41,709 nucleotides of DNA from a bacterium (lineage in GTDB: Bacteria > UBP6 > JAFGXH01): positions 1-41,709 of the forward strand of contig JAMOQH010000101.1 in the NCBI GenBank assembly GCA_027064085.1. The letters are read 5' to 3'. Each line of letters begins with the position of its first letter. The first letter of the stretch is position 1. Under the pieces are notes generated by a model that worked only from the letters and a program-made list of their open reading frames with translations, did no database searches and was not told where the DNA came from. Positions 32,021 through 38,590 of this stretch are shown in pieces. The position numbers were made by a program, and so were the translations under genes.

Positions 32021-32494
32021 TTAATATATAATATGTATCTTTTTTTCTTTAATAAAATTATTTATCTGATAATAAAGATATAAAAAGAATACTGTAGAGA
32101 TTATTTCAAAAATAAAAGAGCCCATATCTCTATTAATGACAATATTAGAACTAATGCTCAAATTAAACAGAATAAATATTAACTTTTCCATAAAAATAAA
32201 GGTAAATGTAATTCTGAGTAAATTTATAAAATCAAAAACAATAAATTCTTTTATTTTATAAAAAAGAATTAAATATATCAAGAAATAGGTAAATGTATAT
32301 ACAGGATAATTTGCATAATAAAAAACATCTGTAAAGTATCCTGCAATTAAAACATATGTTCTAAAATAATTTTTATTAATATTTTTTTTATATGATAATA
32401 AAATTATTGATAATAAGAATAGCTCGGGAACGGATTTAGAATAATATGACAATACTATCATTATTATTGTATTTATAAAAAAATATATAATCAT
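32021..32494 (-). CDS. mreD: Rod shape-determining protein MreD
   Basis: A 157-residue, highly hydrophobic protein with about five transmembrane helices (YFFINTIIMIVLSYYS, LFLLSIILLSYK, YVLIAGYFTDVFYYANYPVY, FTFIFMEKLIFILFNL, FIFEIISTVFFLYLYY). The size and helix spacing match MreD, and the motif GYFTDVFYY sits where MreD proteins have a conserved G-x-x-x-D. Sequence similarity alone would be weak, but the gene overlaps mreC by 4 bp directly downstream of mreB-mreC, which makes the call secure. It is an inner-membrane part of the elongasome. Confidence 0.85.
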   Translation of the reverse strand: MIIYFFINTIIMIVLSYYSKSVPELFLLSIILLSYKKNINKNYFRTYVLIAGYFTDVFYYANYPVYTFTYFLIYLILFYKIKEFIVFDFINLLRITFTFIFMEKLIFILFNLSISSNIVINRDMGSFIFEIISTVFFLYLYYQINNFIKEKKIHIIY

Positions 32495-33294
32495 CTTTTA
32501 ATCACAAAAAAATATTTATCATTATAAAGTTTTTTGGGAAGCTCTACATCAATATTTACAAAAATATTATTTTTAATTTCTCTCACTTTAATAACTTTCC
32601 CAATATAAATTCCTTCTGGAAAAATGGAATCGTAACCATTGGTAACAATTTTATCATTTGCTTTAATGTTAACCCCATTTTCAACATATTTTAACTTTAA
32701 TTTTAACTTCTTTTTATCATTTATACCTGTTGCAAATGCAAATATTTTATTTTTACCTACCCAAACTGGAATGGAAATCTCTTTACTCGTAATCGGAATA
32801 ATTTTAATTTTATTTCCTTGTATTTTATCTGTTATTCCAATTACACCTTTAGCTGTAATTATACCTAAATCTTTTCTTATTATTTCATTGGATATATTTT
32901 CTGCAATTAAATTATTATTTACCGAGGTAAAATTATTTACTATATGCTTAATTGGAACTAAATTAAGTTTTATGTATGATTTCTTTAGGTTTAAAGCGTC
33001 TTTTAATTCACTAATTTCAATTTTATAAATTGAAATTAGTGAATTTTCTATTAATAACAACCTATTTTTATTTGCTAACTGAATGTTTTCTTTTTTTATA
33101 TTAACTAAATCAATGTAATCCACAAAGAAAAATTTTATTGTGTCAAAAAAAGATGAAGTACTTTTTTTCATTGTTGTGATTGAATTATTAATTGGAGAAT
33201 AAATTAATAGATTTTTGGTATTTACTCTAAATATAAGCAATGAAAATAATATTATTACGAGCCAAAAATCCAATTTCTTATAATTTTTTATCAT
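32491..33294 (-). CDS. mreC: Rod shape-determining protein MreC
   Basis: A 267-residue bitopic protein: a short cytoplasmic start, one transmembrane helix (residues 9-24, FWLVIILFSLLIFRV), a coiled coil (about 60-105) and a beta-rich periplasmic domain (GVIGITDKIQGNKIKIIPIT, ANDKIVTNGYDSIFPEGIYI). MreC links MreB filaments to the periplasmic peptidoglycan machinery. The length and domain order are typical. It overlaps mreB and mreD by 4 bp on either side. The coiled-coil DNA contains a 19-bp perfect inverted repeat (33005-33045). Confidence 0.92.
   Translation of the reverse strand: MIKNYKKLDFWLVIILFSLLIFRVNTKNLLIYSPINNSITTMKKSTSSFFDTIKFFFVDYIDLVNIKKENIQLANKNRLLLIENSLISIYKIEISELKDALNLKKSYIKLNLVPIKHIVNNFTSVNNNLIAENISNEIIRKDLGIITAKGVIGITDKIQGNKIKIIPITSKEISIPVWVGKNKIFAFATGINDKKKLKLKLKYVENGVNIKANDKIVTNGYDSIFPEGIYIGKVIKVREIKNNIFVNIDVELPKKLYNDKYFFVIKR
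33005..33045. repeat. 19-bp perfect inverted repeat inside mreC
   Basis: Bases 33005-33023 and 33027-33045 are exact reverse complements separated by TAT. In mRNA this would form a long uninterrupted hairpin within the coiled-coil codons of mreC. Even in AT-rich DNA such a match is unlikely by chance. Confidence 0.9.
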
Positions 33295-35530: not shown

Positions 35531-35554
35531 GGAAAATATTATTTGGGAGTACAA

Positions 35555-36415
35555 ATGAAAATACTTGTAAGTTTACTATTAGTTTTTATGGTTTCATGTA
35601 GTGGTGGTAGTACATCAAATAAAGATATTACATATAAAACCAATAGTAAGGATAAGACGGTGTCTTATCCTACTAAAAATACAAATGGAGAGAAAAAAAA
35701 TAAAAAATATAAGAAAAAACATAAGAAATCTTATTACTCAAGAGAAGATAATCGTTTTGTAGAAATTAAAGATAGACAAGATGTAAGAGTAGCTCCAAAT
35801 TCTAAAGTTGAAGACTATTTAAAGCCATATAGAGCAAGTTTAAAAAAGAAAACAGATGAAGTTATTGCAAAACTTAAAATTGATTTAACGAAAAAGGGCT
35901 ATAGTAATTCATTAGGTAGATTCGCTTCACAAATCATACTTGAGAAAGCAAGAAAATATTCAAAATTACATGTGGATTTTGCTCTTTTAAATAATGGAGG
36001 TCTAAGAAAACCTTTATATAAAGGAGATATTAAAATTAAGGATATTTATGAATTAATGCCTTTTGATAATTACATTGTTGTTGTTTCTGTAAAAGGAAAT
36101 GAAGTGAAAAAAATGTGTGGAGAAATAATACATCATCATGGTTTGCCTATGGCGGGTATTGCAATTCGTGCAGGAGAAACAGATGATAAATACTGTAGAG
36201 TTAATGGAAAAGATATAGATGAGAAAAAAGATTATTTAATTGCAACTATCAATTATTTATATAATGTGGGTGAGGGTGTTCCTTCTTTAAAGCATGGAAA
36301 ACTTGTTAAAAATATGACTAACCACTTATTTAGAGATGCAATTATTGAATATGTAAAAGAAAAGAAAGTGATAGATAAAATTATACCAGTTAACTATTCA
36401 TATCCAAGAAAATAA
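35555..36415 (+). CDS. Lipoprotein with 5'-nucleotidase C-terminal (substrate-binding) domain
   Basis: The start is ATG 35555, after TTGGGAG; a TTG 12 bp upstream overlaps the SD and is rejected. The 286-residue product has a lipobox (VFMVSC, Cys15), a low-complexity Lys/Asn/Ser linker to about residue 65, then a 5_nucleotid_C domain: NSLGRFASQIILEKARKYSK, DFALLNNGGLRKPLYKGDI, IYELMPFDNYIVVVSVKG. The NNGGLR motif binds substrate phosphate or ribose in whole 5'-nucleotidases. The catalytic half is the next gene, so the two domains are in reversed order on separate proteins. A 10-bp-stem palindrome (35645-35674) lies in frame in the linker (encoding DKTVSYP). Confidence 0.87.
   Translation: MKILVSLLLVFMVSCSGGSTSNKDITYKTNSKDKTVSYPTKNTNGEKKNKKYKKKHKKSYYSREDNRFVEIKDRQDVRVAPNSKVEDYLKPYRASLKKKTDEVIAKLKIDLTKKGYSNSLGRFASQIILEKARKYSKLHVDFALLNNGGLRKPLYKGDIKIKDIYELMPFDNYIVVVSVKGNEVKKMCGEIIHHHGLPMAGIAIRAGETDDKYCRVNGKDIDEKKDYLIATINYLYNVGEGVPSLKHGKLVKNMTNHLFRDAIIEYVKEKKVIDKIIPVNYSYPRK
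35645..35674 (+). repeat. In-frame palindromic element in a coding sequence
   Basis: AGGATAAGAC (35649-35658) and GTCTTATCCT (35662-35671) are a perfect 10-bp inverted repeat with loop GGT. The match extends outward to AGT/ACT with one bulged A. It lies in the disordered linker just after the lipoprotein signal and keeps the frame. Confidence 0.85.
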
Positions 36416-36428
36416 TTAGGAGCTATGT

Positions 36429-37316
36429 ATGAAAAGAAGAGATTTTATAAAAAAGACAGTTATAGCTGGTGGATTATTAGCTTCAAGTAACTTATTAGCA
36501 AGTGAAAAGCCTAAAAATTCAACACTAACTATTTTGCATACTAATGATACTCATTCAAGGCTTGACCCATTTCCTAAAGGCAGTGGTTATCGTTCGGATA
36601 TGGGAGGAGTATCAAGAAGGGCAACACTCGTAAATCTTTTAAGAAAAAAGTATCCTAATTCTCTATTACTTGATGCAGGAGATGTTTTTCAGGGTACTCC
36701 ATATTTTAATTTTTATGAAGGACGCTTAGAATACGAAACTATGAGTATGATAGGTTATGATTACGGAACATTAGGAAATCATGACTTTGATTTAGGAACA
36801 GAAAAGCTACTTAAAGCTATGGATTTTTTAAATTTCAAATTAATTAACTCTAACTATCATTCTGATATACCAAAATTTAAGAAATTCGTTTTAGAAAATG
36901 AAATTATTGAAAGACAGGGGGTTAAAATTGGTTTATTTGGTTTAGGAGTAAGTTTTAAAGGTCTTGTTTCTTCTGAATCACATAAAGGAATCAAAGAACT
37001 TGATAGATATGATGTTGCCACTAAGCAAATTAAATATTTAAAAGAAGAGAAAAAAGTTGATTTTGTGATTTTAATCTCACATTTAGGTGTTGATGATGAT
37101 GAAAAATTTGCTAAAAAAATAAATGGAGTTGATTTAATAGTTGGAGGGCATAGCCATACAAAAATAAGTAAGCCATTAGTTGTTAATGATACTTTAATTC
37201 TTCAGGCTGCATCTAGTGGTATATTTTTAGGTAAATTAGACTTGAATTTTGAAAATAAAAAGTTAAAATCTTATGATTATGAGCTGATTCCAGTAAAAGA
37301 AGATACAAAAGTATGA
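36429..37316 (+). CDS. Tat-exported 5'-nucleotidase/metallophosphatase catalytic subunit
   Basis: A 295-residue protein whose N-terminus MKRRDFIKKTVIAGG is a twin-arginine signal, so it is exported folded. The calcineurin-like metallophosphatase domain carries all metal-site motifs: LHTNDTHSR, LLDAGDVFQGTP, LGNHDFDLG, ISHLGVDDD and VGGHSHTKI. This is the N-terminal half of UshA/YchR-type 5'-nucleotidases, which hydrolyse periplasmic nucleotides. It lacks the C-terminal substrate domain, which is encoded by the preceding lipoprotein gene 13 bp upstream. ATG 36429 is used, 6 bp after TAGGAG. Tat export of this half and Sec/lipoprotein export of the other is inferred from the signals. The stop overlaps purM (ATGA). 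Confidence 0.92.
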   Translation: MKRRDFIKKTVIAGGLLASSNLLASEKPKNSTLTILHTNDTHSRLDPFPKGSGYRSDMGGVSRRATLVNLLRKKYPNSLLLDAGDVFQGTPYFNFYEGRLEYETMSMIGYDYGTLGNHDFDLGTEKLLKAMDFLNFKLINSNYHSDIPKFKKFVLENEIIERQGVKIGLFGLGVSFKGLVSSESHKGIKELDRYDVATKQIKYLKEEKKVDFVILISHLGVDDDEKFAKKINGVDLIVGGHSHTKISKPLVVNDTLILQAASSGIFLGKLDLNFENKKLKSYDYELIPVKEDTKV

Positions 37317-38590
37317 AAAAACAAAGTGGAATAGATATTTCATTAAATGATAAAGCTAGTAAAATCGCTTTTAATTATGCAAAAAAGAGTTTTAAAAATA
37401 TAAAAGATGTAAAATCAGTTACAAAAGATGGTGATTTCAGCGGTGGTTTTATATGTAGGGGCGAACCTCTGTGTTCGCCCTATGGTAATGATAATATAAA
37501 TATTTCTATAGCATCAGATGGAATAGGGACAAAAGTTGAAATTGCAGAAAGGTTAAATAAATATGATAGTTTGGGTTATGATTTATTGGCAATGGTTTGT
37601 GATGATTTAATCTCCAATTTTTATGAACCAAAATTTATATCAAATATTTTAGATATTGATTATATTGATTTAAACATAGTTAATGAGTTAATGCAAGGCC
37701 TTAATAAGGCTGCAAAAGAAAGTAATGTAATAATATCAGGTGGAGAAATTGCCGAATTGGGGAATCGTATTAACGGTTATGGTAAATCCATGCATTTTAA
37801 TTGGGGTGCAACCGCAATAGGTTTTAAAATGAAATCCTGTAGAGACGACGGCACTGCCTCGTCTCTGAATCAAAAAAACGCCTCGTCTCTGAATCAAAAA
37901 AATGCCTCGTCTCTGAATCAAAAAAACGCCTCATTCCTGAAGCAAGAAGATAATGAAAATGATGTGAGTCAAGGCAATGCCTTGACTGTACGAAAGCAGG
38001 TATTTGAAAAAGATAATAAAGATGATGTGAGTCAAGGCAATGCCTTGACTGTACGAAAGCAGGTATTTGAAGAAGATAATAAAGATAATGTGAGTCAAGG
38101 CAATGCCTTGACTGTACGAGTGGGAGATAAAGTTTATGCTCTTAAATCCAATGGATTTCGGAGCAATGGATTTTCTTTGGCAAGAAAAATTCTATATGAT
38201 AATTATGGTGATAATTGGCATAATTTTAAATTCAATAAATATGAAAGCTGGGGGAGTATATTATTAAAACCATCAAAAATTTATACTCCTATTATTAAAA
38301 AAATAATAAAAAACGGTGTTCTGATAAAAAAAATAGCACATATCACTGGTGGTGGCTTCATAAATAATACTAATAGAATTTTACCTGATAATTTAAAAAT
38401 AAATATTACTAATCCAATAAGTACACCTGAATATTTTAAAAAATTAATAAATTTAGGTAATATTTCCCAAAAGCAAGCAGAATTAACATGGAATATGGGT
38501 TATGGTATGGTAATAATCACAAAAGAAGCTATAGGCACATCAATAATAGATTGGCCAATGCAATATATTGGGGAAATAATAGAAAAATGA
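37313..38590 (+). CDS. purM: Phosphoribosylformylglycinamidine cyclo-ligase with in-frame palindromic inserts
   Basis: A 425-residue AIR synthetase; typical PurM is about 340. It uses ATP to close the imidazole ring, making AIR from FGAM in purine synthesis. Conserved parts: ISIASDGIGTKVEIAERL, GYDLLAMVCDDLI, VIISGGEIAELG, LKSNGFRSNGFSLARKIL, IAHITGGGFINNTNRILPD and TWNMGYGMVII. Two foreign-looking insertions keep the frame: residues 48-57 (palindrome at 37456-37482) and about 177-269, made of a palindrome, three ASSLNQKN units and 21-residue repeats. Both sit where PurM has surface loops, so the enzyme may still fold. Start overlaps the nucleotidase stop; purL overlaps its stop (ATGA). Confidence 0.93.
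   Translation: MKKQSGIDISLNDKASKIAFNYAKKSFKNIKDVKSVTKDGDFSGGFICRGEPLCSPYGNDNINISIASDGIGTKVEIAERLNKYDSLGYDLLAMVCDDLISNFYEPKFISNILDIDYIDLNIVNELMQGLNKAAKESNVIISGGEIAELGNRINGYGKSMHFNWGATAIGFKMKSCRDDGTASSLNQKNASSLNQKNASSLNQKNASFLKQEDNENDVSQGNALTVRKQVFEKDNKDDVSQGNALTVRKQVFEEDNKDNVSQGNALTVRVGDKVYALKSNGFRSNGFSLARKILYDNYGDNWHNFKFNKYESWGSILLKPSKIYTPIIKKIIKNGVLIKKIAHITGGGFINNTNRILPDNLKINITNPISTPEYFKKLINLGNISQKQAELTWNMGYGMVIITKEAIGTSIIDWPMQYIGEIIEK
37456..37482 (+). repeat. In-frame palindromic element A in purM
   Basis: GGGCGAAC and GTTCGCCC form an 8-bp stem around CTCTGT, flanked by TA on both sides with one bulged G. It is markedly richer in G+C than the surrounding gene. It encodes RGEPLCSPY within a PurM N-terminal loop. 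Confidence 0.88.
37841..37866 (+). repeat. In-frame palindromic element B in purM
   Basis: AGAGACGA (37841-37848) and TCGTCTCT (37859-37866) pair as an 8-bp stem, with an inner GGC/GCC stem around ACT and one bulged C. It begins the large second insert. Confidence 0.87.
37856..37951 (+). repeat. 24-bp tandem repeats in purM
   Basis: Three nearly identical 24-bp units (starting 37856, 37880, 37904) and one decayed unit (37928-37951) encode ASSLNQKN. Each unit includes the right arm (TCGTCTCT) of element B, so the array seems to have grown from that palindrome. Confidence 0.9.
37961..38119 (+). repeat. 63-bp tandem repeats carrying palindromic element C in purM
   Basis: Units begin at 37961 and 38024, with a partial third from 38087. 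Each contains a perfect 9-bp inverted repeat (AGTCAAGGC, loop AAT, GCCTTGACT) at 37967-37987, 38030-38050 and 38093-38113. The period is 21 codons, so the frame is kept. Confidence 0.92.

Follow-up and report, generated by a model that had tools for sequence, protein, structure and literature searches.

How do palindromic repeats enter protein-coding genes? This is the old puzzle of the Rickettsia palindromic elements (RPEs), in which the enzyme has so far not been visible. The question arises again in contig JAMOQH010000101.1 of a bacterium from the phylum UBP6 (assembly GCA_027064085.1), whose 41,709 nucleotides we call the window. Two of its genes, which encode a lipoprotein and the AIR synthase PurM, contain short palindromes that the initial annotation took for a possible RPE-like system. 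We think that these palindromes are probably repetitive extragenic palindromes (REPs) of the GTAG superfamily that lie within genes, including one inverted pair that is like a REPIN (a REP doublet forming a hairpin), and that they are non-autonomous elements cognate to the genome's own REP-associated tyrosine transposases (RAYTs, also called TnpA_REP), which are single-strand HUH transposases of the subclass-2.4 type. For each family of the apparently translated palindromes, there is a candidate transposase whose own gene bears the same hairpin in the same frame. Because of this pairing, it can be tested directly whether RAYTs insert REPs into genes and whether it is the mechanism or selection that favors the frame. 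And the "extragenic" in the name of the REPs is not general.

Palindromes in the window

The palindromes are real and non-random. They lie where the initial annotation had placed them (A, B, C with a one-base bulge, and three copies of D; Table 1), and all are in frame within their host genes, as it had said. A, B, and D are the only perfect, G+C-bearing hairpins in the window with arms of at least 8 bp, save for a chance-like hairpin with an 8-bp arm and an 8-nt loop and an AT-rich one with a 19-bp arm; the imperfect C is not listed by such a search. The genome has a GC content of 27%; in 497 kb sampled from it, 20 hairpins had at least 4 G/C in the arm, versus 2 in first-order Markov controls.

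The initial annotation counted four unlike palindromes in two neighboring genes. All four exist, but purM contains two insertions (B and a composite that runs from C to D) rather than several unrelated elements, and a Metallophos gene separates the two hosts. The palindrome that it saw in three copies is indeed present three times: D belongs to a 63-nt tandem unit that is triplicated, and D is paired with C as the ends of the composite. A 24-nt half-palindrome unit, present in four copies, had been missed. The alignment of copies of the wider A cassette gives the encoded peptide as (K..S.D)KANSKDKTxSYPTKNTNGEKK.

Table 1. Elements and host genes in the window
Feature	Positions	Strand	Remarks
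Lipoprotein with 5'-nucleotidase C-terminal domain (P0001)	35543..36415	+	Pfam PF02872 5.8e-18, residues 119-250
Wider A cassette	35605..35706 (approximate limits)	+	Flanks common to ~8 other genes; 10-copy alignment, coding orientation
Element A (F1 family)	35645..35674	+	AGTA-AGGATAAGAC-ggt-GTCTTATCC-TACT; translation SKDKTVSYPT; family of 82 genome sites
Metallophos gene	36429-37316		Between lipoprotein P0001 and purM
purM (AIR synthase)	37313..38590	+	425 aa; host of B and C+D; PF00586 residues 61-155, PF02769 residues 269-406; PDB PurM relatives
Element B	37455..37480	+	GTAGGGGCGAACCTCTGTGTTCGCCC; translation CRGEPLCSP
Whole composite insertion (GTAG-hairpin C ... hairpin D-GTACG)	37839..38118	+	PurM residues ~176-268; no orthologue counterpart; predicted disordered
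Element C (left end of composite)	37839..37865	+	GTAGAGACGACGGCACTGCCTCGTCTC; translation CRDDGTASSL; hairpin and its frame recur in C8, C18, and the C182 RAYT
24-nt tandem array	37855..37950	+	4 copies of C's right half; encodes (N)ASSLNQK
63-nt tandem array	37944..38132	+	3 copies, one D hairpin per copy
Element D, copy 1	37967..37987	+	AGTCAAGGCAATGCCTTGACT then GTACG; translation SQGNALTVR
Element D, copy 2	38030..38050	+
Element D, copy 3 (right end of composite)	38093..38113	+

Dispersal across the genome

The genome (3.65 Mb, a draft of 195 contigs, which we number with a C) was surveyed via sampled stretches and pattern searches. Far from being unique, which would have spoken against mobility, the palindromes have many dispersed copies, as the initial annotation expected of mobile elements. 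The F1 pattern that describes A (GGAYRAGNC-nnn-GNCTYRTCC) matches 82 sites, while the reversed pattern matches none. The core of D (CRRGGCANTGCCYYG) occurs at 18 sites. Neither was found in two other genomes of the same family (G001 and G002), and in the rest of the phylum F1 gave 0-2 one-mismatch matches per genome, which equals the level of its own controls. B looked unique with a rigid pattern of fixed length, but six looser relatives appeared once the loop was allowed to vary, which makes seven B-like hairpins (GTAGGGGCRA), including a near relative on contig C105 and one in a RAYT on contig C185. Similarly, a fixed pattern overlooked C because of its bulge; this element recurs on contigs C8, C18, and C182, always paired with a D hairpin to its right. 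B and C are members of small families, and the C...D composite is present in purM, on C8 and C18, and in the RAYT on C182.

The anatomy of the F1 copies is that of a small hairpin with an unpaired foot. At stem position 4, the pairs are T-A (36), C-G (20), and C-A (4); at position 5, they are A-T (31), G-C (26), and A-C (3). Because the stems covary, selection on pairing, or the copying of paired subfamilies, is visible inside coding sequence. The foot is GTAA in 35 of 60 F1 copies and GTAG in 12, and it is GTAG in B, in C, and in the RAYT-internal copies. The excess of GTAA is degeneration: the host copies could be dead, or they could have been altered by selection.

At four contig ends (C24/C72 and C56/C116; stretches L246, L249, L247, and L254), the assembly breaks within coding hairpin arrays, so copy numbers in those genes are probably underestimated. 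The end of C141 and C174 (L063 and L064) hold a near-duplicate gene pair with the element MSQGSALTVR in each; one of these may be a recent paralogue or reflect a split contig.

Transposases that carry the hairpins

A search of the genome for Y1_Tnp gave three matches. The hairpin scan uncovered two further transposases, in which the hidden Markov model match was broken by inserts, and a profile search uncovered a third. Three RAYTs hold hairpins of type A, C+D, and B in frame, just past the HUH motif. On C192, several A-type hairpins (GTAGGGATAAGGCGTTGCCTTATCC), which encode CRDKALPYPV, follow MPNHIH; in the RAYT at C182:61497, a C...D composite (RRDDGTASSLN...RQGNALSVR) follows MPDHIH; and on C185, a B-type hairpin (RRGEVVTRP) and a second, inverted hairpin follow MPNHIH. 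The frames of these hairpins are the frames of the dispersed copies. A fourth RAYT of the same group (C182:24612-25109, or L046:9612-10109) has no internal REP, and a GTAG hairpin, GTAGTAGGGGTAGATTCCATATCTACCC, lies right past its stop codon; this is a classic flanking REP. The initial annotation saw no transposase and held that any spread would depend on factors elsewhere. Such factors need not be left nameless: the candidates, RAYTs with the same hairpins, do lie elsewhere in the genome.

RAYTs of many unrelated genomes also carry hairpins at this position, but different ones. We compared 46 RAYT genes of this kind, drawn from many genomes: the stretch after the HUH motif contains a tagged hairpin in 37, versus 0.65 expected from shuffles, and the stretch before it, where some 5' flank may be included, does so in 10. 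An internal REP does not always disperse widely into genes, though. In the one unrelated genome that we checked for this (G036), a RAYT-internal REP has only six copies, and five of these lie within ~500 bp on the RAYT's own contig stretch. We searched for phage DNA resembling the C192 RAYT and found none.

Two side observations concern the transposases. First, a shorter Y1_Tnp protein on contig C32 (L045:4223-4765) has a C-terminus that is encoded by a palindrome (HQQGVATPCFRCRASDGG), and palindromes of a similar kind lie upstream; this gene looks like a different, IS200/IS605-like element. Second, the Pfam model SpoU_methylas_C (PF12105) matches the REP-encoded repeat of a RAYT protein (L295, residues 106-119; 7.8e-7); this model may itself be contaminated by REP-encoded repeats.

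Orientation and reading frame

The sampled stretches were selected by hairpin and not by coding state, save for one added RAYT stretch. They contain 66 F1 sites, of which 59 lie in open reading frames (ORFs) with 100 codons or more. All but two of the 59 (57) are read in one phase, which encodes [KR]D[KE]xxx[YHR]P. If each ORF is counted once, 30 of 32 F1 loci share one orientation and frame, and it is the transposase's own. The hairpin could be read another way, as a second, antisense frame is open in all 32. For a coin toss between the two open frames, two or fewer exceptions have a probability of ~1e-7 by our arithmetic; a few ORFs at contig ends may be fragments of one gene, but this scarcely affects the figure. 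One of the two exceptions, on C137, has stops upstream and is probably not coding.

Exact F1 matches fall at 32 ORF loci versus 2 non-coding loci. This is not an enrichment within genes as such, because ORFs of at least 100 codons make up 93% of the sampled sequence. The oddity is rather that genes, from which REPs are normally expelled, tolerate them here.

Tandem arrays with units of 24-189 nt are common. In coding arrays, every spacing is a multiple of three; the periods range from 33 to 189 nt (11-63 residues) and differ between genes, and none is 75 nt. In a non-coding array on contig C189, the spacings are 70, 136, and 70. That array (L048:3744-4223) consists of five copies of the GGATAAGGCGTTGCCTTATCC hairpin, with cgcccgtag and spacers rich in A+T, and its period is not divisible by three.

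Host proteins and their orthologues

The insertions sit outside or between protein domains. Element A occupies residues ~36-46 of the lipoprotein, just past the lipobox and outside the PF02872 domain. The element falls between Pfam domains in PurM, YidC, TilS, and an ABC-F ATPase; in YidC it is in the linker that joins the first membrane helix to the periplasmic domain. An AlphaFold model of PurM, which is a modest model built from only 10 sequences, has a confident, folded core and a pLDDT of less than 50 at residues 177-263.

Orthologues lack the residues in the cases that can be judged, and their presence there would have told against mobility. PurM residues ~176-266 are absent from the genomes of the same family, from contig DMJA01000240.1 (which has the nearest named PurM/PurL), and from Geobacteraceae, and the residues encoded by B are absent from the same-family and DMJA sequences. 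Orthologues of TilS and the ABC-F ATPase have gaps at the element's position. For YidC, absence is only roughly supported, and the linkers of DnaX and CheA are too variable for judging the element. The RPE-like behavior that the initial annotation described, with dispersed palindromes of the translated type in protein linkers and no counterpart in orthologues, is thus borne out. Its description of the genome as deltaproteobacterial in type is not supported: among the genomes used for comparison, this one falls in a small phylum of its own, and the identity of its PurL to Geobacteraceae reaches 46-48% at best.

Relation to known repeats

Parts of this picture have been described. REPs in frame inside tnpA_REP genes are known for subclass 2.4 (Quentin et al. 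2018, PMC6006769), and intragenic GTAG REPs are known from, for example, Opitutus terrae (Di Nocera et al. 2013, PMC3733652), although REPs were mostly intergenic in that survey. The elements that we studied have the anatomy of GTAG REPs (a short hairpin, one end of which bears an unpaired foot that reads GTAG or deviates slightly from it), they are dispersed (82, 18, and 7 sites) with complementary alternatives at two stem positions, and they are linked to RAYTs, three with internal hairpins and one with a GTAG hairpin past the stop codon. Like the GTAG REPs of Di Nocera et al., they occur as singles, pairs, and clusters of tagged hairpins, some in ORFs. The typical but not strictly defining extragenic location is lacking: almost every F1 locus in the sample lies inside a gene, with a single orientation and frame. 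As in subclass 2.4, the tnpA_REP genes contain in-frame REPs, placed between HuH and Y. Unlike there, these hairpins also occur in frame in dozens of other genes, with a single frame in use, and the host copies are mostly GTAA-footed. The composite C...D, with two inverted hairpins flanking a spacer, fits the REPINs (PMC3116915) loosely, as the hairpins are not identical, the right foot is GTAC, and the spacer is translated and tandem-expanded.

Rickettsia RPEs, described as 100-150 bp (PMC3767692), are likewise translated palindromic linker inserts in unrelated genes without counterparts in orthologues outside the group. However, RPE-4/6 have been equated with CGTC repeats, which have no link to RAYTs (Di Nocera et al. 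2013, PMC3733652), and the foot here is GTA(A/G), the tag of GTAG REPs. Set against the descriptions of RPEs, the tag and the RAYT link lead us to reject membership, and the link that the initial annotation drew is an analogy only. PARCELs (palindromic amphipathic repeat coding elements; Roske et al. 2010, PMC2996958) are also coding tandem repeats with dyad symmetry in the DNA, but they form a 25-residue amphipathic motif in ORFs without assigned functions; our elements are short inserts in identified genes and, judged by array periods and not by the PARCEL profile HMM, lack the 25-residue repeat. The elements work like an RPE system, yet because of their different tag they are classed with the GTAG REPs of the RAYT subclass-2.4 type, as an intragenic, oriented, and phased form. 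What is unusual is that the F1 copies are nearly all intragenic, that all but two of the ORF loci share one orientation and frame, and that the periods of coding arrays are divisible by three.

How did the hairpins spread?

We infer that the RAYTs transposed the hairpins, that the inserts are translated, and that selection caused the frame bias. A RAYT would recognize the foot and hairpin in single-stranded DNA and place copies elsewhere in the genome. A copy that disrupts its host gene or is read in a hydrophobic frame would be lost, while one in a linker would survive if read in the hydrophilic frame, which gives [KR]D[KE]xxx[YHR]P for A and RDDGxASSL...QGNALxVR for C+D, and would then grow by in-register tandem duplication.

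Several points weigh against this account. The closest genomes with orthologues share ~45-54% protein identity, at which no exact empty site or target sequence is readable. The foot is degraded to GTAA in most host copies. Type-A copies share ~100 bp that match loosely outside the hairpin, which recombination of lysine-rich linkers would also fit. Transposition of the hairpin alone leaves the near-exclusive orientation unexplained. The placement in subclass 2.4 is suggested by the internal REPs and not by a tree. For some N-terminal copies, such as those in the SufC-like ORF on C144 and in the C18 oxidoreductase, the true start codon may be further downstream, and the apparent translation of the inserts is read from the DNA.

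The main rival is that the hairpins spread mainly via homologous recombination, gene conversion, and tandem duplication among low-complexity linkers rich in lysine and asparagine, with the RAYTs as mere recipients. The related flanks of type A favor it for that type, the frequent arrays agree with it, and coding-to-coding copying should give a single orientation and frame. But D, C, and most F1 copies have only the foot and hairpin in common, in unlike flanks; the stems covary; full-length copies with a foot at both ends (GTAGAGACAAGGCA..TGCCTTGTCTCTAC) occur in non-coding DNA; and unlike hairpins sit at one place in the RAYTs of many unrelated genomes. We consider this explanation unlikely for the system as a whole.

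A bolder form of the transposition account is that RAYTs with in-frame REPs are an in-frame protein-extension system. Copies would be delivered to transcribed genes in a fixed orientation and phase, and their later expansion would go by multiples of three. In this way, a lineage of REPs would have moved from extragenic to coding life, diversifying the linkers of core enzymes genome-wide. This is speculative, and we would not bet on it.

It is quite improbable that selection maintains the insertions as features of the proteins, be it as adaptive linkers or as hairpins for RNA control, instead of their being tolerated mobile DNA. The single hydrophilic frame and the core genes among the hosts (PurM, YidC, DnaX, TilS, CheA, and FtsK-like) could be read that way, but the host proteins have no common class, the sister genus does not conserve the inserts, and disorder is predicted. 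We give very little credence to a Rickettsia-type system homologous to RPEs or Wolbachia palindromic elements (WPEs): many unrelated genes do have in-frame linker palindromes with no orthologue counterpart, but the foot is not CGTC (PMC3733652), cognate RAYTs are in the genome, and the phylum is unrelated. Lastly, chance palindromes or an assembly artefact, which the fragmented draft and the contig ends inside arrays might suggest, are rejected on the copy counts of 82 and 18 versus a control of 0, the excess of hairpins over controls, and the covarying stems.

Other features of the window

The AT-rich palindrome with the 19-bp arm (33005-33045) is perfect, lies in an ORF on the minus strand (32491-33294), and is unlike the REP types. 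At 35543-37316, the 5'-nucleotidase appears as two genes in reversed order: the C-terminal-domain lipoprotein comes first and is followed by the Metallophos gene, which has its own signal-like N-terminus.

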